Positions 4,916 through 34,393 of a DNA stretch of 34,881 bases are shown here, in pieces. The stretch lies in contig JAOPYM010000454.1 in NCBI GenBank assembly GCA_025964615.1, positions 1-34,881 of the forward strand, given 5' to 3'. This DNA is from Actinomycetes bacterium. Lineage in GTDB: Bacteria; Actinomycetota; Actinomycetes; Streptosporangiales; Streptosporangiaceae. Positions within the stretch are counted from its first letter, which is position 1, and every line of letters starts with the position of its first letter. The translations under genes and the position numbers were made by a program. The notes beneath the pieces were generated by a model. It ran no database searches and was not told where the DNA came from. It worked only from the letters and a program-made list of their open reading frames with translations.

Positions 4916-6207
4916 ACCGCACGGAACAGCGCTCCGCCTGGCAGCTGCTCGACTCCGGTCAGCTGCTGCTGATCGCCATCGCGGGGCTCGTCGTGATCGT
5001 GGCGGTCACCCAGGTGGCCGCGGTGGGTCTCGACCGGCCGGTCACCGCCGTCATCTTCGGGGTGCTGATCGCGCTCGGTGAGCTGGCCCGGATGGTCATG
5101 CCGGGCAACCGGGAGGTCGCCCCGATCGGTACCGCCGGGGCGCTGGGCTACGCGCTGCTGCTGCGAGTCGGCGAGCAGCCCGCCGACCAGACCCCGCTGC
5201 AGGTGGTCGCCGTCACGGCCGCCGGGATGCTCATCGGCTCACTGCCGCACATCGCGGTCGGCCGCGCGCCAGCGCCCGACCCGATGGCCCGCCGGCTGCT
5301 CTGCATCGCGCTCGTGGCGTTTCTGTTCCGGCCGATCGCAGGCCGGCTGTTGCCCGCCGGTGAGCTGAGCAAGCGCGACTGGCTCCTCGCGCTGGCGTTG
5401 ATGGCCGCCGTGGTCGCCCTCGCCGGCCTCGCCGAGGTGGTCGTCGCCGCGATGATCAGGGCGGAGGCGGTACGGGCCAGGTTCGGCATCGCGCTCGCCG
5501 ACGAGATCGGGGCCCTCATGGCGCTGTGGGTGGCGACCGGCCCCACCGGGATGCTGATCGCGGTCGCCACGTCGGTGATGGGGCTGACCGCGCTGCTGGT
5601 CTTCACCGCGCCGATCCTGGTCACCCAGGTCGCGTTCCGCCGGTACGCGGGGATCCGCGCCACCTACCTGCAGACCATACGGGCGCTGTCGCGGGTCACC
5701 GAGGTCGGCGGCTACGTCGAGCCGGGCCACTCCCGGCGGGTCTCCAGGCTTTCGATCGCGATGGGGCGGGAGCTCGGCATGGCCGAGGCCGAGCTCCTCG
5801 ACCTGGAGTACGGCGCGCTCATGCACGACATCGGGCAGCTCTCACTCGGTGACCCGATCCCGGGCGGCGCGACCGTGCTGGCCTCCCCGAACGAGCAGCG
5901 CAAGATCGCAGAACTGGGCGCCGGGGTCATCGAGCAGACCGGGGTGCTGCCCAGGGTCGCCGAGATCGTCCGCCGCCAGTCCGAGCAGTACCGGGTCGGC
6001 CGGTCGCCGAGCACCGCGCCGCCGCTGGCCAGCCGGATCGTCAAGGTGGCCAACGCCTACGACGACCTGGTCGGGGACTCCGGAGACCGGGACCGTTCCG
6101 CCGCCGTCCTGGAGCGGCTGCGCCTCGACTCGGCCGCCGAGTACGACCCCGCCGTCGTGGAGTCCCTCAGCCGCGTCATCGACCGGGGAGGCCTCGCCCG
6201 CCTGTGA
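4909..6207 (+). CDS. Membrane HD-domain protein, degenerate partner of the HD-GYP gene
   Basis: 432 residues. The first ~240 are rich in hydrophobic segments, likely six or more membrane spans. A cytoplasmic HD-type domain follows. GHSRRVS (His274) and HD (306-307) are kept, but HDxGK has become HDIGQ (Lys to Gln310) and the HHExxxGxGYP motif is missing, replaced around 355-364 by RRQSEQYRVG. Metal coordination and cyclic di-GMP hydrolysis are therefore doubtful. A regulatory or scaffolding role is more likely. The ATG overlaps the end of the upstream HD-GYP gene, implying coupled translation. Similar architecture of the two suggests an old duplication followed by loss of catalysis. Confidence 0.8.
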   Translation: MVNRTEQRSAWQLLDSGQLLLIAIAGLVVIVAVTQVAAVGLDRPVTAVIFGVLIALGELARMVMPGNREVAPIGTAGALGYALLLRVGEQPADQTPLQVVAVTAAGMLIGSLPHIAVGRAPAPDPMARRLLCIALVAFLFRPIAGRLLPAGELSKRDWLLALALMAAVVALAGLAEVVVAAMIRAEAVRARFGIALADEIGALMALWVATGPTGMLIAVATSVMGLTALLVFTAPILVTQVAFRRYAGIRATYLQTIRALSRVTEVGGYVEPGHSRRVSRLSIAMGRELGMAEAELLDLEYGALMHDIGQLSLGDPIPGGATVLASPNEQRKIAELGAGVIEQTGVLPRVAEIVRRQSEQYRVGRSPSTAPPLASRIVKVANAYDDLVGDSGDRDRSAAVLERLRLDSAAEYDPAVVESLSRVIDRGGLARL

Positions 6208-6322
6208 GCCCGACAAATCTACGGGCGGGTATTTGTGTGCTGCGATGATCGGCCCGCGTGCGCGGCGGCACTAGTGTCGGGCGGGTCCACCCGTACCGTC
6301 GCACCACCGAGGGGTCTGCAAG

Positions 6323-7660
6323 GTGTTCGAGTCCGTGCTCGTCGCGAACCGCGGGGAGATCGCCGCCAGGGTGATCCGTACCGTGCGGGCGATGGGCCTC
6401 AAGGCCATCGCCGTGTACTCCGAGGCCGACGCGGAGCTGCCGTTCGTCGCGGCGGCCGACGAGGCGATCCTGATCGGGCCCGCCCAGCCCGCGGCCAGCT
6501 ACCTCAACGTTGACGCGATCCTGGAGGCGGCAGCGCGGACCAACGCCCAGGCCGTACATCCCGGGTATGGCTTCCTGGCCGAGAACGCGATGTTCGCGCA
6601 GCGGGTCATCGACGCCGGCCTGGTCTGGATCGGCCCGCCGCCCGAGGCCATCGTGCGGATGGGCGACAAGATCAACGCCCGGAACCTGATGGAGAAGGCC
6701 GGGGTACCCGTCGCGGGAGGTACCCGGGAGCCGGTCCAGGACGCCGAGGTGGCGGTGGCCGCCGCGAAAGAGATCGGTTACCCCGTCATGGTCAAGGCCG
6801 CGGGTGGTGGCGGTGGCATCGGGATGAGTGTCGCCCACGATGAGGCCGCACTGAGGTCCGCGTACGAGACAGCGCGCACCCGCGCGGAACGTTTCTTCGG
6901 CAACCCCGACATCCTGCTTGAGCGGTACATCGAACGGGCCCGCCACGTCGAGGTGCAGATCCTCGGCCTGGCCGATGGAACGGTCGTCGCACTGGGTGAA
7001 CGGGACTGCTCGGTGCAGCGCCGCCACCAGAAGGTCGTCGAGGAGACGCCGTCACCCGGCATCACCCCTGAGCTGCGCGCAAGGATGCTGGCGGCGGCCG
7101 TGCGCGCGGGCGAGGCGGTCGGCTACCGGGGTGCGGGGACGGTCGAATGCCTGGTCGACTCGGTACGCCAGGACTTCGTCTTCCTGGAGATGAACACCCG
7201 GCTGCAGGTCGAGCACCCGGTCACCGAGCTGGTCACCGGTATCGACCTGGTCGAACAGCAGTTGCTGATCGCCGCGGGTGAGCCGGTCTCCTTCGTGGCC
7301 GCCGCGCCGCAGGGGCACGCGATCGAGTTCCGGGTGTACGCCGAGGACCCCAAGCGCTTCCTGCCGGGACCGGGCGTGATCAAGGTCTGGGAGGAGCCCG
7401 CCGGTGAGGGCATCCGGATCGACGCGGGCTACGTCGAGGGCAACACGGTCACGCCGTTCTACGATCCGCTGCTGGCCAAACTCTGCGTGTACGGCGCGGA
7501 CCGGGCGGCGGCGCTGGAGCTGGCCCGCGCGGCGCTGGCGAGGTTCCGCATCGAGGGACCGAAGAACAACCTTCCGTTCTTTACCGAACTCCTGGACGAC
7601 GGGGAGTTCGCGGCGGGCACCTACGACACGGGACTCGTCGATCGGATGCGCGCCCGGTAA
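6323..7660 (+). CDS. accC: Biotin carboxylase subunit of an acyl-CoA/acetyl-CoA carboxylase
   Basis: A 445-residue stand-alone biotin carboxylase that carboxylates biotin on a carrier protein using ATP and bicarbonate. The N-terminal domain starts VLVANRGEIAARVIR. The ATP-grasp region has MVKAAGGGGGIGM (156-168, Lys158) and EMNTRLQVEHPVTE (289-302), which holds the catalytic Glu, Asn and Arg. The length equals that of single-domain AccC proteins, unlike the fused AccA3/BccA type common in actinobacteria. The start is GTG with GAGGGG 8 bases upstream. The carrier protein gene follows after 27 bases. No carboxyltransferase gene is in the window, so the acyl-CoA substrate cannot be told. Confidence 0.92.
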   Translation: MFESVLVANRGEIAARVIRTVRAMGLKAIAVYSEADAELPFVAAADEAILIGPAQPAASYLNVDAILEAAARTNAQAVHPGYGFLAENAMFAQRVIDAGLVWIGPPPEAIVRMGDKINARNLMEKAGVPVAGGTREPVQDAEVAVAAAKEIGYPVMVKAAGGGGGIGMSVAHDEAALRSAYETARTRAERFFGNPDILLERYIERARHVEVQILGLADGTVVALGERDCSVQRRHQKVVEETPSPGITPELRARMLAAAVRAGEAVGYRGAGTVECLVDSVRQDFVFLEMNTRLQVEHPVTELVTGIDLVEQQLLIAAGEPVSFVAAAPQGHAIEFRVYAEDPKRFLPGPGVIKVWEEPAGEGIRIDAGYVEGNTVTPFYDPLLAKLCVYGADRAAALELARAALARFRIEGPKNNLPFFTELLDDGEFAAGTYDTGLVDRMRAR

Positions 7661-7687
7661 TGGTTTGTTCACTGAGAGGATTTCGTT

Positions 7688-7900
7688 GTGGCTGAGGTAC
7701 GCGCTGAGATGGTCGCGAACGTGTGGAAAGTCGTCGTCGCCGAGGGCGACACGGTGGAGGACGGGGACACGTTGGTGATCCTTGAGTCCATGAAGATGGA
7801 GATCCCGGTGCTGGCCGAGGACGCCGGGACGATTTCCAAGCTCTCAGTGGCCGAGGGGGACGTCGTCCAGGAGGGCGACCTCATCGCCGTGATCCAGTGA
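7688..7900 (+). CDS. Small biotin carboxyl carrier protein (BCCP, TB7.3-like)
   Basis: A 70-residue protein consisting only of a biotinyl domain. ESMKMEIP (33-40) holds the biotin-accepting Lys36 between the two conserved methionines. The second half repeats the beta-hammerhead pattern (AEGDVVQEGDLIAVI). It closely resembles the 71-residue mycobacterial biotinylated protein TB7.3, which also lies near a SigH/anti-sigma pair and pdtaS. The GTG start has GAGAGGA upstream. It is probably translated with accC and supplies that enzyme with its biotin substrate. Confidence 0.92.
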   Translation: MAEVRAEMVANVWKVVVAEGDTVEDGDTLVILESMKMEIPVLAEDAGTISKLSVAEGDVVQEGDLIAVIQ

Positions 7901-7922
7901 CCCACTGAGTAAGGTGCTGATC

Positions 7923-8102
7923 GTGACCTACTGCGACCACTGCGGCGAACCCGCCCCGCAGACCCATGAGGCCTGTGCGATCGCCCGCCGGATGGAGCCG
8001 CCGCGTTACTGCGGAGAATGCCGCCGGCGGATGGTCGTACAGGTCACCCCGCACGGCTGGACCGCCCGCTGCGTCGAACACGGCATCCTCACGTCGGCCT
8101 GA
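7923..8102 (+). CDS. bsaP: Probable biotin synthase auxiliary protein (BsaP-like)
   Basis: About 59 residues with cysteine pairs: YCDHCG near the start, YCGECRRRM in the middle, and a later ARCVEHG. From memory, RRMVVQVTP and GWTARC followed by HG are hallmarks of the actinobacterial BsaP family. Mycobacterial BsaP is needed for biotin synthase to convert dethiobiotin to biotin. bioB lies about 740 bases away on the other strand, which supports the call. I chose GTG at 7923 because AAGGTG precedes it; GTG at 7914 would add three residues. The gene is 22 bases after the biotin carrier gene, so it is probably co-transcribed with biotin users instead of the bio genes. The alternative is a generic zinc-ribbon protein. 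Confidence 0.68.
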   Translation: MTYCDHCGEPAPQTHEACAIARRMEPPRYCGECRRRMVVQVTPHGWTARCVEHGILTSA

Positions 8103-8119
8103 GACCTTCGGGAGCCTCG

Positions 8120-8158
8120 TTCAGAGGTTCAGTTCAGAGGTTCAGTTCAGAGGTTCAG
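8120..8158. repeat. Three perfect tandem 13-bp repeats
   Basis: TTCAGAGGTTCAG occurs three times head to tail (8120-8132, 8133-8145, 8146-8158). The third copy encodes the final residues and stop of the GNAT gene. The repeat lies in the convergent gap after the BsaP-like gene. Copy number may vary between strains. Confidence 0.85.
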
Positions 8159-8635
8159 GAAGTACGTGATGAGGTTGACCCCGGGGAGTGGTGACCAGTC
8201 GCGGTCCGGGGTCCGCTCGAAGCCGATCCGCTCGTAGATCCGGTGTGCGGCCTGCATGTTCCGCTGGGTCGAAAGGCGGATGCCGGTGAATCCAGAGGAC
8301 TTCGCGCGGTCGATGCACTCCTGGATCAATGCGCCGCCGATGCCCCTGCCCCGGACGGCGTCCCGTACCGCGAGCATCCGGAACTCGGCCTCGTCGGGAG
8401 CGGCCAGTTCCGCGTACGGGCTGTCGGGCGGGCAGTAGGCCACCGAGCCCACGATCTCCCCGGCCAGCTCGGCGACGATCAGCTCGGCCATGTCCCCCCG
8501 GTCTGCGGCGTCCCGCAGGATGTTGAAGTATGTCGAAGCAGGGTTGATCAGGTCGTCCTTGAGGTACACGGCGACGGTGAGCTCCCCGATGAGGTCGTAC
8601 TCCTCAGGGCGGGCGGTGCGGATCACAAGGGTCAT
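8147..8635 (-). CDS. GNAT-family N-acetyltransferase
   Basis: About 162 residues from the ATG at 8635 (MTLVIRTARPEEYDLI), the usual opening of GNAT proteins. The acetyl-CoA binding motif A is VRDAVRGRGIGGALIQECID, with R/Q-x-x-G-x-G/A as RGRGIG. The motif B region includes NMQAAHRIYERIGFER. An in-frame TTG at 8689 would add 18 residues with no family resemblance. The substrate is unknown. The C-terminus is encoded by the third 13-bp tandem repeat. The gene stands alone between the BsaP-like gene and the bio cluster and need not belong to either. Confidence 0.82.
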   Translation of the reverse strand: MTLVIRTARPEEYDLIGELTVAVYLKDDLINPASTYFNILRDAADRGDMAELIVAELAGEIVGSVAYCPPDSPYAELAAPDEAEFRMLAVRDAVRGRGIGGALIQECIDRAKSSGFTGIRLSTQRNMQAAHRIYERIGFERTPDRDWSPLPGVNLITYFLNL

Positions 8636-8770
8636 AGGCCAGGGCATTCCATGATTCGGCGGCTGGGTCACGAGATCATTACCGTACAAGAGCGGTGACG
8701 GGACTCCAACACACGCCCGTCATCCGGAAGACGTTAGCAAGGCACCGTCCGATTCGGTAACGCCCGCTGA

Positions 8771-8834
8771 CCGTTGAGTCGTGGCGTTTCCCGCACCGAA
8801 CGCCGAAACGGTGCGGGAAACCACGGCTCAACGG
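8771..8834. repeat. Palindromic element E2, after bioB
   Basis: The left arm CCGTTGAGTCGTGG ... CCCGCACCG pairs with the right arm CGGTGCGGGAAA ... CCACGGCTCAACGG. The loop is about AACGCCGAAA. The right arm lacks a CG pair present in the other copies, giving a small bulge. It ends 5 bases from the bioB stop codon, so it could act as a bioB terminator. Confidence 0.85.
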
Positions 8835-8839
8835 AGAGG

Positions 8840-9835
8840 TCAGAGGGTCTGCTGGAGGGCTTTGACGGGCATCTGGAGGTCGGCCAGGAGGTCGAGGTCC
8901 TGCTGGGCGGAACGGCCGAGCGTGGTCAGGTAGTTGCCGACGATGATGGCGTTGATGCCGCCGAGCATGCCCGAGCGGGTGCCCAGGTCGCCGAGGGTGA
9001 GCTCACGCCCGCCCGCGTAGCGCAGGATCGTGCGCGGCAGCGCCAAGCGGAACGTACCGATGGTCTTGAGCGCCTCGGTGCCCTCGACCAGCGGGAGCGT
9101 GCCGAACGGGGTACCGGGGCGGGGGTTGAGGAAGTTCAGCGGGACCTCGTCGGGCGCCAGTTCGGCCAGCTGACCGGCGAACTCGGCCCGCTGCTCGATC
9201 GACTCGCCCATCCCGATGAGCCCGCCGCAGCACACCTCCATGCCCGCCTCCTTGACCATCAGGAGGGTGTCCCATCGCTCCTCCCAGGAGTGCGTGGTGA
9301 CCACGTTCGGGAAGTACGATTTGGCGGTCTCGAGGTTGTGGTTGTAGCGGTGCACGCCCATCTCGGTCAGCTCGTCGACCTGGGCCTGGGTCAGCATGCC
9401 CAGCGAGCAGGCGATGTTGATCTCGACGGCCTCATTGATGGCCTTGATGCCCTCGCGGACCTGGGACATCAGCCGCTCGTCCGGGCCCCGCACGGCGGCG
9501 ACGATGCAGAACTCAGTCGCGCCGGTCTTCGCCGTCTCCCGGGCCGCCTCCACCAGCGAGGGGATGTCCAGCCAGGCGGACCGTACCGGGGACTCGAAGG
9601 TGCCGGACTGGGAGCAGAAGTGGCAGTCCTCGGGGCAGCCGCCGGTCTTCAGCGAGACGATGCCCTCGACCTCGACCTCCGGGCCGCACCAGCGCATCCG
9701 CACCTCGTGCGCCAGCGCGAGCAGGTCCTCAATGCGCTCGTCGGGGAGGTTCAGGCACTCCAGCGCCTGCGCCGCGTTCAAGCCCTTGCCCTCGTCCAGC
9801 ACCTGGCGGCGCGCGACGTCGAGGATGTCGGTCAC
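8840..9835 (-). CDS. bioB: Biotin synthase
   Basis: A 331-residue radical SAM enzyme that inserts sulphur into dethiobiotin. The radical SAM cluster motif is [10 protein letters not shown] with Cys67, Cys71 and Cys74. Other family stretches include [17 protein letters not shown] and [11 protein letters not shown]. Its start overlaps the end of bioD by four bases (ATGA), so bioD and bioB are coupled. A BsaP-like auxiliary protein is encoded nearby, in line with mycobacterial BioB enzymes that depend on it. The palindromic element E2 lies immediately after the stop. Confidence 0.97.
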
Positions 9836-10557
9836 TTGGTCTCCTTATGAGGGGCGTGGGTGTCTCGAAAAGTAGCAGCGTCGAATACCCCGCCGAGCAC
9901 CGGGGACAGCCCCTGACGTGCGGCGAGCAGGAACTCAGCGGGATCCAGGCCGCCCAAGCCCGACGGCAGGACCCCGGCCAGCGGCCGGGATGCGATGGTC
10001 TCCAGGTCCCGGATGTTGCACCGCATCGCCAGGTCCGGGTCGGCCGGCCAGGACCCGATCACAATCCCGGCGGGTTGGACCCCCCGGTTTGCCATGGCCT
10101 CCAGGGTGAGCGCGGTGTGGTTGAGCGTCCCGAGGTCGGGCCGGGCCACCACGACCACCGATGCGCCCAGCCACCGGGCCAGATCGGCCAGGGTCGAGCC
10201 GTCCTCGTCGAAACGGACGAGCAGCCCGCCCGCGCCCTCGACCAGGATCAGCTGCCGATCGAGTGCCTGGATCCGCTCGGTGGCCTCGACCAGGCTCAGC
10301 GCGGGCACTCCGGCCTGCCGTGCCGCGGCGGCGGGGGACAACGGGTCGGGGAACCGTGCGAACTCGTGCAGGTCGGTGATGCCCGCCATACGCCGTACAT
10401 CGTCCAGATCTCCTGGCTCACCGGCCTTCACGCCGGTCTGGGCCGGTTTGACCACGGCCACCGAGGCCCCCCGCGCGCGGGCCAGGGTGGCAAGCGCGGC
10501 GGTGACCACGGTCTTGCCGACTCCGGTGTCGGTCCCCGTCACTACGATCACGCTCAC
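9832..10557 (-). CDS. bioD: Dethiobiotin synthetase
   Basis: 241 residues. The enzyme closes the ureido ring of dethiobiotin from 7,8-diaminopelargonate, CO2 and ATP. The P-loop is GTDTGVGKT (8-16), followed by the catalytic KPAQTG segment (Lys37, Thr41) and VEGAGG (106-111), all expected for BioD. It follows the GntR regulator gene after 129 bases and overlaps bioB by four bases. The adenosylmethionine aminotransferase gene (bioA) is not in the window, so diaminopelargonate must come from an enzyme encoded elsewhere. Confidence 0.96.
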
Positions 10558-10686: not shown

Positions 10687-11460
10687 TCAGCGGGCTTCGG
10701 GCCTGGGGCGGCGCAGCTTGGTGACGAACTTGTAGCGATCGCCTCGGTAGAGGGACTGTGCCCACTCCACCGGCTCGCCGTTGCGGTCGAAGGAGTGCCG
10801 GGACAGCAGCAGCATCGGCAGCCCGACGTCCACGCCGAGGAGCTGGGCGTCGTGCGGGGTCGCCAGCACCGTCTCGATCGTCTCCTCGGCCTCGAACAGG
10901 TGCACGTCGTACGCCGTGGCGAGGGTCTGGTAGAGCGACAGGTGCCGGGGGAGTTCCTTGCGGAGGCCCGGGAAACGGCGGGCCGGCAGGTGCGAGGTGT
11001 CCACCGACATGGTGACCCCGTCGGCCAGCCGGAGCCGGTGGATGCGCAGCACCCGGCCGCCCGGGCGGATGCCTAGCAACATCGCGAGCCGCTCGTCGGC
11101 GCTCACGTACCCGATGTCGAGGATACGGGTCTCCGGGTGCAGGCCGTGCGTGCGCATGTCCTCCGTGTAACCCATGAGCTGCAGCTCGTGGGCCACCTTC
11201 GGCTTGGCGACGAACGTGCCCTTGCCCTGGATCCGCTGGAGCCGGCCCTCCACGACCAGCTCCGCGAGCGCCTGCCTGACCGTCGTACGCGACGTACCGT
11301 AGCGTTCGGCCAGCGTGCGCTCGGGCGGCAGCGGGCTGCCGGCTCCGAGCGACTGGATCAGCTCGACCAGCAGTTCCTTCAGCTTGTAGTACTTCGGGAT
11401 CCGGGGTCCTCCGATGACGGAGGGCCGGTAGTCGTCAAGGGGCGCCCGTTCGACCGTCAC
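10687..11460 (-). CDS. GntR/HutC-family regulator, DasR-like, inside the bio cluster
   Basis: 257 residues. The N-terminal winged helix covers roughly 20-90: [14 protein letters not shown], then [22 protein letters not shown] and [18 protein letters not shown]. The C-terminal UTRA ligand domain covers about 100-245, with [43 protein letters not shown] and RGDRYKFV. These stretches strongly resemble Streptomyces DasR, the GlcNAc-responsive regulator. The GTG start has AGGAGGG upstream and overlaps the bioF stop by four bases (GTGA), so the gene is translated with bioF. No clear dre operator (ACTGGTCTAGACCAGT-like) is seen nearby. It may be a DasR paralogue controlling biotin genes, or DasR itself carried in this location. 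Confidence 0.85.
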
Positions 11461-12650
11461 GTGCCCTCCTTGTGTTCACCGGCGGTTGGCCCCGATGTTA
11501 CGTGATCGGTTTCGGCTGCAACCACTGCGAGGGCCTCGGAGAGCACGGCGAGTTCGATGTCGGTGATCGAGGCGCGGGCGGTGATCCGCAGGCAGGCCCG
11601 GCCCTTCGGTACCGACGGTGGCCGGAAACAGCCCACCCGCGCGCCGTACTCGGCGCAGATCTCCGCCGCCCGCACCGCCGCCTGCGGCTCGCCGAGGAAG
11701 ACCGGGACCACGGCGGCCGCGGGCTCGGTGGTCTCCAGGCCCAGCTCCGCGGCCATCGCCGAGATGGCCCGCGCCCGGCTCCGGGCCCGCCCGGGCAGCT
11801 CGGGCTCGGCGGTCAGGACGTCCAGCGCGGCAAGTGCGGCACCTGCGGCCGGCGGGGTGAGGCCGGTATCGAAGATGAAGGCGCGGGCGGTGTCGACCAG
11901 GGTCTCGATCACCTCGGGGGCGCCCAGGACCGCCCCGCCCTGGGTGGCCAGGGACTTGGACAGCGTCAGGGTCAGTACGACGTCGGGTTCGCCCGCGATC
12001 CCCGCCGCCTGCGCCGCGCCCTGCCCCCGGGCCCCGACCACGCCGAGCGCGTGGGCCTCATCGATCACCAGGATCGCCCCGTACCGGCGAACCACCGAGT
12101 GCAGCGCGGCGAGCGGCGCGAGATCACCGTCCACCGAGAAGACCGAGTCGGTGACGACGACCGCGTGGTCCTCGTCACGCTCGGCCAGCGCCAGCTCGAC
12201 CGCGGCCACGTCCCGGTGCGCAGTGATCACCACGCGGGCCCGCGACAGCCGGCAGGCATCCACGATCGACGCGTGGTTCACCTGATCGGACACCACCAGG
12301 GTGCCGGGTCCCGACAGCGCCGTGACCGCGCCCAGGTTGGCCAGGAAGCCCGAGGAGAACACCAGGCCCGCAGCCGTACCGACGAACGAGGCCAGCCGCG
12401 CGTCCAGCTCCGCGTGCAGCGCCGTCGTACCGGTGACCAGCCGGGACCCGCCCGCTCCCACCCCCCACATGCGCGCCGCCCGTACCGCGCCCTCGATCAG
12501 CCGGGGGTCACGCGACAGCCCGAGATAGTCGTTGGAGGCCAGATCGATCAGCCCGTCGTGGTCGGCGGTGCGGGGCCGCAGGCCGCGCCGCAGGCCGGCG
12601 GCCGCACGGGACTGCGTCGCCTGGCGCAGCCGCTGCAGAGGATCGCTCAT
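11457..12650 (-). CDS. bioF: 8-amino-7-oxononanoate synthase
   Basis: 397 residues from the ATG at 12650. A longer open frame to 12890 is antisense to pdtaS and has no homology. BioF is a PLP enzyme that joins pimeloyl thioester and alanine, the first committed step of biotin ring assembly. Visible features: ASNDYLGL (39-46), GSRLVTG (68-74), NHAS (125-128), [10 protein letters not shown] (197-206) and the PLP lysine in [11 protein letters not shown] (Lys232). The stop overlaps the GntR gene start. The promoter must lie in the 43 bases shared with the divergent kinase gene or within its coding start. Confidence 0.95.
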
Positions 12651-12693
12651 ATCCGGGATCCTGCCAGGTCGAAGCGGCTGCGATGATGGGCGG

Positions 12694-14163
12694 GTGCCTA
12701 CCTTGACCGACCTGGTGCGCGGCAACACCGACCTCGACGACGCCGACCTGGAATGGCTGCACTCCCTGGTGTCGGACTGGCAGCTGCTCGCCGACCTCTC
12801 CTTCGCCGACCTCGTGCTCTGGGTGCCACAGGCCGGGGAAGCGACGGGCTGGATCGCGGTCGCGCAGATGCGGCCCACCACCGGCCCCACGGCCTATCCC
12901 GGCGACCTCGTCGGCACGGTCGCCAAGGCGGGGCGGCGCGGACTGATCGACGTCGCCTGGCGGGAGCGCCGTATCGTCCGGGAGGGCGATCCCGAGTGGG
13001 GCAGCGGCATCCCCATCAGGGAGGAGTCGATCCCGGTACGGCGGGGTGCCAAGATGCTGGGCGTCATCCAGCGCAGCACCAACCTCAGCTCGGTCCGTAC
13101 TCCCTCCAGGCTGGAGCTCACCTACCTCGACATCGCCAGCGTGCTGGCGCAGATGATCTCCGAGGGCAGGTTCCCGGTGGACGGGGAGGAGCCCAACTTG
13201 GTCCGCTCGCCCCGGGTGGGAGACGGGCTGCTCAGGCTGGACCGGTCCGGGCTCGTCATCTATGCCAGCCCGAACGCCGAGTCCGCGTTCCGCCGCCTCG
13301 GTCTGGCGACGGACCTGGTCGACACCCATCTGGGCGTGACCACGGCCGCGCTCTGCGACACCGGCGAGCCGATGGACGAGTCGCTGACCGTCATCCTCAG
13401 CGGCCGGGCGCCCCGCGAGGCGGAAGTGGAGCACAACGGGTCGGTGGTGCAGCTGCGGCTGATCCCGCTGATCCACGACGACGACCGGGTCGGCGCGGTC
13501 GTCCTGCTCAGGGATGTCACCGAGCTGCGCTGGCGGGACCGCGAGCTGATGACCAAGGACGCCACCATCCGGGAGATCCACCATCGGGTGAAGAACAACC
13601 TGCAGACCGTGGCCGCGCTGCTCCGGCTGCAGGCCAGGCGGTTGCAGATCCCCGAGGGCCGGGCGGCGCTCGATGAGGCTGTACGGCGAGTGGGGTCGAT
13701 CGCGGTCGTGCACGAGACCCTCTCGCACACACCCGAGGAGCTCATCGACTTCAACGACATCGCCGACCGGGTGCTGATGATGGCCGGTGAGGTCTCCACA
13801 GCCGAGACGCGGGTGATCCCCAAGCGGATCGGCAGCTTCGGGGTGCTGCCCGCGGTCATCGCGACCCCAGTCGCGATGGCACTCACGGAGCTGCTGCAGA
13901 ACGCCCTGCAGCACGGGCTGCCGGGCCGGTTCGGCCTGCTCGAGGTGATCGCGACCCGCGACGGCGACCGGCTGACCGTGGTGGTCGCCGACGACGGGGT
14001 GGGAATGCCGGCCGATTTCGACATCGAGTCGACCGTGAGCCTCGGCCTGCAGATCGTCCGTACCCTCGTCGGCGAGATCGGCGGGCGCCTGGAGTTCAAC
14101 GAGCGGCCCAGCGGCGGCACCGAGGTCGTGATCGACGTGCCGGTCAGCGGCGAGCGCCGATGA
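12694..14163 (+). CDS. pdtaS: Sensor histidine kinase, PdtaS type
   Basis: 489 residues from the GTG at 12694. The sequence VPTLTDLVRGNTDL matches the opening expected for PdtaS. A GAF-like domain lies at about 25-160, a PAS-like domain at 178-275, then a HisKA_2 box REIHHRVKNNLQT (293-305, phosphoacceptor in the His296-His297 pair) and a HATPase domain with N-box TELLQNALQHG and DDGVGMP. There are no membrane spans, so it is cytoplasmic. PdtaS signals to PdtaR, an ANTAR RNA-binding regulator, which is not in this window. In mycobacteria pdtaS also lies next to whiB1. A perfect terminator hairpin follows. Confidence 0.92.
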   Translation: MPTLTDLVRGNTDLDDADLEWLHSLVSDWQLLADLSFADLVLWVPQAGEATGWIAVAQMRPTTGPTAYPGDLVGTVAKAGRRGLIDVAWRERRIVREGDPEWGSGIPIREESIPVRRGAKMLGVIQRSTNLSSVRTPSRLELTYLDIASVLAQMISEGRFPVDGEEPNLVRSPRVGDGLLRLDRSGLVIYASPNAESAFRRLGLATDLVDTHLGVTTAALCDTGEPMDESLTVILSGRAPREAEVEHNGSVVQLRLIPLIHDDDRVGAVVLLRDVTELRWRDRELMTKDATIREIHHRVKNNLQTVAALLRLQARRLQIPEGRAALDEAVRRVGSIAVVHETLSHTPEELIDFNDIADRVLMMAGEVSTAETRVIPKRIGSFGVLPAVIATPVAMALTELLQNALQHGLPGRFGLLEVIATRDGDRLTVVVADDGVGMPADFDIESTVSLGLQIVRTLVGEIGGRLEFNERPSGGTEVVIDVPVSGERR

Positions 14164-26854: not shown

Positions 26855-26871
26855 GACATGTCGCGTCTACT

Positions 26872-26936
26872 CGTTGAGTCGTGGCGTTTCCCGCACCTAA
26901 GAGCGAAACAGTGCGGGAAACGCCACGAGTCAACGG
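26872..26936. repeat. Palindromic element E3, after the DUF6104-like gene
   Basis: The arms CGTTGAGTCGTGGCGTTTCC + CGCAC and GTGCGGGAAACGCCACGAGT + CAACG pair almost perfectly around the loop CTAAGAGCGAAACA. It ends one base before the stop codon of the DUF6104-like gene and lies about 17 bases upstream of the DUF4097 promoter. Confidence 0.9.
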
Positions 26937-26937
26937 G

Positions 26938-27111
26938 TCAGTCTTCGTCGTCGAGGCGGGCGAGCCAGGTGGCGAGGCGTTCTATGGGGGTCTCGAATTC
27001 GGGGTTGAGGTCGACGAACTCGCGGAGGCGCTCGGCGAGCCACCCGATGCCGACCTCCTCGGAGCCCCGTCGCTCGACGAGTTCCTCGATGCCCCGGTCT
27101 GTGAAGTACAT
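26938..27111 (-). CDS. Small conserved actinobacterial protein, DUF6104-like
   Basis: 57 residues: it starts MYFTDRGIEELVERRGSEEV, contains WLAERLREFVDLNPEFETP (24-42) and ends ERLATWLARLDDED. From memory this matches a small, conserved actinobacterial family now called DUF6104. The ATG has a strong GGGAGGA site. The protein is acidic, mostly helical and cytoplasmic by composition. Its function is unknown. It lies downstream of kgd on the same strand, separated by a terminator hairpin and element E4. Element E3 follows its stop. The gene is thus bracketed by two palindromic elements. Confidence 0.82.
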   Translation of the reverse strand: MYFTDRGIEELVERRGSEEVGIGWLAERLREFVDLNPEFETPIERLATWLARLDDED

Positions 27112-27124
27112 GGGTCCTCCCTTT

Positions 27125-27209
27125 CGTTGAGTCGTCCAACAAAGGCAGGCGTTTCCCGCACCGTTTCGCTCTCAGGTGCGGGAAACGCCAGCTTCTATTG
27201 GACGAGTCG
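27125..27209. repeat. Palindromic element E4, between kgd and the DUF6104-like gene
   Basis: The inner arms GGCGTTTCCCGCACC and GGTGCGGGAAACGCC are perfect. The outer arms GAGTCGTCCAA and TTGGACGAGTC pair with one mismatch, with an unpaired inner stretch. Its loop, read on the minus strand (TGAGAGCGAAACG), matches the plus-strand loop of E3, so E4 is inverted relative to E3. It starts 13 bases from the start codon of the DUF6104-like gene. Confidence 0.85.
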
Positions 27210-27249
27210 ACGAAGGCCCCGGCGCGAGCGCTGCGGGGCCTTCGTCGAC
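27206..27249 (-). terminator. Terminator of kgd
   Basis: GTCGACGAAGGCCCCG (27206-27221) pairs perfectly with CGGGGCCTTCGTCGAC (27234-27249), 10 bases beyond the kgd stop. It abuts element E4. Confidence 0.85.
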
Positions 27250-34331: not shown

Positions 34332-34393
34332 GTTGACTCGTGGCGTTTCCCGCCCCGCTCTATCGTTCGGTGCGGGAAACGCCACGAGTCAAC
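34332..34393. repeat. Palindromic element E5, before the phosphatase gene
   Basis: GTTGACTCGTGGCGTTTCCC and GGGAAACGCCACGAGTCAAC form a perfect 20-bp stem, with a loop of about 22 bases that holds part of the conserved inner arm (GCCCC / GGTGC). It ends 13 bases before the GTG of the phosphatase gene and lies about 30 bases after the hydratase-family gene. Confidence 0.9.

Follow-up and report, generated by a model that had tools for sequence, protein, structure and literature searches.

The window, by which we mean the whole 34,881-nt stretch of DNA analysed here, carries a gene of 180 nt that lies between a biotin carboxylase and carrier protein pair on one side and a convergent biotin cluster on the other. 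The features needed to follow its placement are:

6212–6237, no strand assigned: inverted repeat GACAAAT-N12-ATTTGTG, a candidate operator; several clade members have the same site ahead of accC
6269–6280, plus strand: conserved CACTAGTGTCGG, a possible -10 region (TAGTGT) of an accC promoter, read by eye
6323–7660, plus strand: accC, stand-alone biotin carboxylase of 445 aa (PF02786, PF00289, PF02785)
7688–7900, plus strand: single-domain biotin carboxyl carrier protein (BCCP) with an ESMKM biotinylation motif (NF004547/PRK05889, 128.3 bits, cut-off 75; PF00364)
7923–8102, plus strand: bsaP, biotin synthase auxiliary protein of 59 aa (NF052237; comparisons of 24 and 106 sequences)
8147–8650, minus strand: GNAT acetyltransferase between bsaP and bioB (PF00583)
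8840–9835, minus strand: bioB of the BsaP-dependent type (TIGR00433, 355 bits; A142, E57, E108, R163, E230)
9832–10557, minus strand: bioD, dethiobiotin synthase (TIGR00347, 117.6 bits, cut-off 83.3)
10687–11460, minus strand: GntR/UTRA regulator within the bio cluster (PF07702, PF00392)
11457–12890, minus strand: bioF (TIGR00858, 381 bits, below the cut-off of 426, match from residue 107; position in the bio cluster)

BCCP starts 27 bp behind accC, and bsaP follows BCCP after 22 bp on the strand opposite bioB, the anatomy that the initial annotation of this DNA had described. bsaP probably forms one transcription unit with accC and BCCP, in which it is the third gene. The annotation had also set this position against that in mycobacteria, where bsaP is beside bioB. 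The contrast stands for the strand but not for the distance: only 737 bp separate bsaP from bioB, and this interval holds a single gene, that of the convergent GNAT acetyltransferase. A short tandem repeat, GAGGTTCAGTTCA, occurs in about three copies at 8115–8160, where bsaP and the GNAT gene converge, and overlaps the GNAT stop codon.

The same genome encodes three biotin carboxylases, the window accC included, and five carboxyltransferase-domain genes, none of them in the window; one bioA above the cut-off and one birA also lie outside it. The true start of bioF is probably about 240–270 bp inside the open reading frame. The GntR/UTRA regulator, DasR-like by eye, is kept between bioF and bioD across Streptosporangiales loci, with identity of up to 90%, a higher degree of conservation than bioD shows. 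No DasR-type operator turned up in the window. Single-domain BCCPs of the PRK05889 type beside a sigma-R/sigma-H gene represent what we take to be the Rv3221c type. Similarly, a sigR-like gene and two HD-domain genes lie upstream of the window BCCP, and the block in which the stand-alone accC and the 70-aa BCCP (6323–7900) sit behind these genes is conserved across loci. Unlike BCCPs of that type, the one in the window is followed by bsaP.

BsaP is the product of Rv1590 and MSMEG_3195, and BioB depends on it for the step from dethiobiotin to biotin (Qu et al., 2024; PMC11099021). Assignment of the 7923–8102 gene to this family, first made in the initial annotation, is borne out by an hmmscan match to the NCBIfam model NF052237 (biotin_BsaP) of 88.5 bits (cut-off 39, E = 2.1e-25) that spans model positions 1–53, its full length. 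NF052237 is an equivalog model and the only NCBIfam match of this open reading frame. The Pfam scan returned no BsaP model; its match to Lentivirus_VIF was sub-threshold (12.5 versus 25 bits) and was taken as a chance hit on cysteine spacing. Both hallmark motifs named in the annotation, RRMVVQVTP and GWTARC, are present in the 59-aa protein exactly as given there. We favour the GTG at 7923 as the start codon because an AAGGTG ribosome-binding-like site lies 6 nt upstream of it; the alternative GTG at 7914, chosen in the automatic listing of open reading frames, falls inside this site. The gene is, on sequence criteria, a genuine bsaP that belongs to a known family and is ordinary within it.

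Residue correspondences match this assignment. C30, C33, and C50 equal Cys44, Cys47, and Cys64 of the M. tuberculosis protein (BsaP.tb) in spacing, so that the window protein has the CxxC, the third cysteine, and the 17-residue interval of Rv1590 and MSMEG_3195, and these positions are invariant among 24 aligned homologues. R35 and R49 match Arg49 and Arg63 of BsaP.tb by their spacing from the cysteines. Arg66 of the mycobacterial protein has been termed highly conserved (PMC11099021), but the window protein has E52 at this position and many relatives likewise have Glu, so that the arginine is not a strict mark of the family.

Two groups of potential metal ligands can be read from the protein, a C-terminal one made of C30, C33, C50, and H53 and an N-terminal one made of C4, C7, H15, and C18. 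Mycobacterial BsaP has three conserved cysteines and gains Fe-S-like absorbance upon reconstitution, and the main text of that report names only cysteines at the cluster site (PMC11099021). Among 106 homologues that we scanned, however, the last cysteine is followed by histidine in a CxxH arrangement in 105, the exception (L098) having Asp, and the C-terminal site is possibly a 3Cys-1His site (CxxC..CxxH). The strict N-terminal pattern C-x2-C..H-x2-C is found in 99 of the 106, with a variant in L180, and is absent from six, all members of one family (f6) that we take, from order and near-identical cysteine positions, to include the mycobacteria. It is also absent from a named Tsukamurella BsaP; a plasmid search for BsaP found only three weak relatives, one of which is a Tsukamurella bioB-bsaP pair without the N-terminal motif. 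The window protein thus differs from mycobacterial BsaP by an extra N-terminal C-x2-C-G..H-x2-C. We tentatively suggest that BsaP may generally be a protein with two metal sites, the mycobacterial form being reduced and its cluster maybe His-ligated; this is a possibility to which we give somewhat less than even weight. An AlphaFold model of the window protein is confident (pLDDT 90.5). Fold searches of the PDB returned nothing significant (best Z 2.4), and the weak matches are zinc-ribbon-like: RPB9, NrdR, ZPR1, and HVO_0758. H53 and the N-terminal Cys/His motif are residue-level predictions that bear on how BsaP works.

The window BioB is the only BioB in its genome, and it is of the kind that would be expected to need such a partner. 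Five residues differ between the E. coli enzyme and BsaP-associated BioBs (PMC11099021). When aligned with E. coli BioB (1R30), the window enzyme carries the BsaP-type residue at all five positions: A142 for C128, E57 for S43, E108 for R95, R163 for Y149, and E230 for S218. It shares these substitutions with the BioB partner of mycobacterial BsaP. All five are found in every sampled BsaP-type BioB that covers the sites, and they do not occur as a set in E. coli-like BioBs.

Most bsaP genes are located directly downstream of bioB (PMC11099021), whereas the window gene ends an accC-BCCP run on the strand opposite bioB. We compared gene order in the 80 named loci nearest to the window, a sample mapped with window proteins and therefore biased to its kin. 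Half of these loci (40/80) have bsaP on the strand of bioB or of a bioB-GNAT pair, often directly behind bioB, and the stop codon of bioB overlaps the bsaP start (TGATG) in several loci of the Actinoplanes type. On the accC/BCCP strand, bsaP is found in 36 loci. It is co-directional with and within 200 bp of accC or BCCP in 25, comprising 21 Thermomonosporaceae-type loci, with gaps of 20 to 143 bp, and four from Frankiaceae. Another 11 loci place it on the same strand 399–655 bp from accC/BCCP, and the four of these that were read all hold a minus-strand, small-thioesterase-like open reading frame in the gap. In Streptosporangiaceae, a gene between BCCP and bsaP was considered as a member of the run and rejected, as the best candidate frame is on the minus strand and, judged by its sequence alone, resembles a small hot-dog thioesterase. 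A GNAT gene lies directly upstream of bsaP on the same strand in 9 of the 80 loci. Such a gene is a neighbour of bsaP in L097, L099, L104, L108, L109, L152, L154, and L160, and in several lineages it stands 6–50 bp upstream, between bioB and bsaP.

The window arrangement recurs gene for gene in L087, an unclassified Streptosporangiaceae MAG. Loci from Actinomadura, Spirillospora, and Thermomonospora (L092, L095, L112, L139, L141) share the accC-(BCCP)-bsaP run with its 20–143 bp gaps and belong to the same clade of the BioB tree. Most loci of these genera have bioD-bioB on the accC strand and often lack BCCP, whereas the window and L087 have bioB on the opposite strand; many Actinomadura loci have no BCCP in the run, and bsaP comes straight after accC. 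Actinomadura rayongensis (L141) has accC-BCCP-bsaP-bioD-bioB on one strand. Pseudonocardia has a BioB-BsaP fusion (PMC11099021), which links the same two functions physically; the window has separate genes on opposite strands.

In an unrooted BioB tree of 73 rows made with a quick method, the window groups with 19 Thermomonosporaceae-type loci, all of which have the co-directional run (SH-aLRT 91). The branches require that the co-directional state arose no fewer than two times, Frankiaceae being the second case. Although genuine, the accC-BCCP-bsaP run is not unusual: it is clade-wide in Thermomonosporaceae-type actinobacteria and arose independently in Frankiaceae. Two loci from the same larger group as the window, L099 (Actinomadura sp. 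DC4) and L108 (an Actinoallomurus MAG), have accC-BCCP facing bsaP-GNAT-bioB. Their gene order equals that of the window save for the strand of bsaP, which makes an in-place inversion of bsaP the simplest path between the two states; as the tree is unrooted, we infer the direction of the flip from the wider distribution.

These comparisons bear on whether the placement is selected. We lean towards a neutral origin, in which bsaP changed strand where it stood and transcription from accC-BCCP continues into it for want of a terminator, constitutive expression being enough. The identical gene order of L099 and L108, save for the bsaP strand, is what this explanation would predict, and M. smegmatis bsaP is functional from a separate genomic location (PMC11099021). 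It fits less well with the tight gaps of 20–60 bp, which persist in many species despite other rearrangements, and with the second, independent origin in Frankiaceae.

The inverted repeat at 6212–6237 is a candidate local control site of the accC-BCCP-bsaP unit, or it may belong to the 3' end of the HD gene that precedes it. Exact GACAAAT/ATTTGTG arms at equal spacing are found in L087, L089, L117, and L139, and in L131 with one changed base next to an arm; near variants are found in L101, L112, and L141, and several clade members lack the repeat. Many members of the clade have a sequence similar to CACTAGTGTCGG ahead of accC. The repeat occurs once in the whole genome of the window, so no bio gene shares it, and it gives no support to coordination with bioF-bioD-bioB. 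No palindromes or 9-mers common to the upstream regions of accC, bioF, bioD, and the GntR gene were found. Within 6100–8300, no sigma-70-like promoter was found and one weak terminator-like pattern is located at the accC end. An Rfam search gave no match.

The alternative that bsaP is held in the accC operon by selection for common control with biotin-using proteins, possibly through the inverted repeat, we consider rather unlikely, at roughly one chance in four. The arrangement is kept across a clade of 20 loci, arose again in Frankiaceae, and survives both the absence of BCCP and inversions of bioD-bioB; the extended run of L141 and conservation of the repeat in part of the clade point the same way. 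On the other hand, the repeat is unique in the genome and missing from several clade members, and sister Streptosporangiaceae have the minus-strand thioesterase-like frame between BCCP and bsaP. If true, a biotin-responsive accC operon would be a simple way to match vitamin synthesis to need.

The distribution of bsaP was compared across 60 related genomes. BioBs in this sample fall into two sharply separate kinds, with either 71–100% or 34–38% identity to the window enzyme; 27 genomes have the former, 14 only the latter, and 19 have no BioB. G024 has both kinds. bsaP is present in 26 of the 27 genomes with a BsaP-type BioB and in none of the 33 others (p = 4e-16, a value that, owing to kinship among the genomes, overstates the number of independent events). 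The exception, G047, in which bsaP was not detected, is an assembly of 970 contigs. Single-domain BCCP, in contrast, is found in 22 of 26 genomes with bsaP and in 26 of 34 without it (p = 0.53), that is, with no association. Kinship affects both p-values in this way, but the contrast between BioB and BCCP stands.

One draft genome, G033, represents a natural genomic experiment that links bsaP with BioB rather than with the carboxylase. Its bsaP (L053) is frameshifted and has lost invariant core residues, and its BsaP-type bioB (L079) is split over two frames, contains an in-frame stop, and has Tyr in place of one of the three radical-SAM cysteines. accC and BCCP beside the broken bsaP are full length, and the genome carries a separate, E. 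coli-like BioB (37%). Sequencing error is unlikely to explain so many lesions in bioB, and one biotin synthase system has apparently been replaced by the other.

The tracking of BsaP-type BioB rather than BCCP, together with the joint decay in G033, argues that the function of BsaP is to help BioB and not the carboxylase. That BsaP moved to act on AccC or BCCP instead, as its position beside these genes in Thermomonosporaceae and Frankiaceae might suggest, is highly improbable given the same BCCP in most genomes that lack bsaP, the intact accC and BCCP of G033, and the many loci with accC-bsaP and no BCCP. The proposal in the initial annotation that the arrangement ties sulphur insertion to the expression of biotin users stays a hypothesis: bsaP follows the type of BioB across genomes, has been lost together with bioB next to an intact accC and BCCP in G033, and often adjoins accC where BCCP is missing, and accC and the bio genes have no operator in common. 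This evidence does not require biotin synthesis to be coupled to biotin use, although such coupling is plausible; a plain inversion of bsaP, at a place where accC-BCCP already faced the bio cluster, would also give this arrangement.

We are thus highly confident in the overall reading of the locus as a genuine bsaP that helps the sole BsaP-type BioB, probably expressed in an accC-BCCP-bsaP unit, in a position that is clade-wide and derived by an in-place flip. BsaP would help this single BioB convert dethiobiotin to biotin. The working model for mycobacteria is that BsaP supports a sulphur-donating cluster at the altered auxiliary site of BioB (PMC11099021); by analogy, the window protein would most likely provide or maintain an iron-sulphur, sulphur-donor site at the altered auxiliary-cluster pocket. 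The gene would have changed strand in place where the accC-BCCP unit meets the convergent bioB cluster. BsaP-dependent biotin synthesis would then extend to Thermomonosporaceae-type actinobacteria. To our knowledge, direct biochemistry of BsaP covers mycobacterial proteins only.

A separate, palindromic repeat, consisting of GTTGAGTCGTGGCGTTTCCCGCACC, a variable loop, and a mirror arm, occurs in the window at 8771–8821, between bioB and the GNAT gene, and at 26869–26938, 27123–27214, and 34332–34393, with a half copy at 17–44. It was not seen in the related loci examined. The genome contains about 270 such hairpins (275 forward and 271 reverse half-matches, 0 in a reversed control), and many copies lie at contig ends; the repeat is REP- or MITE-like.
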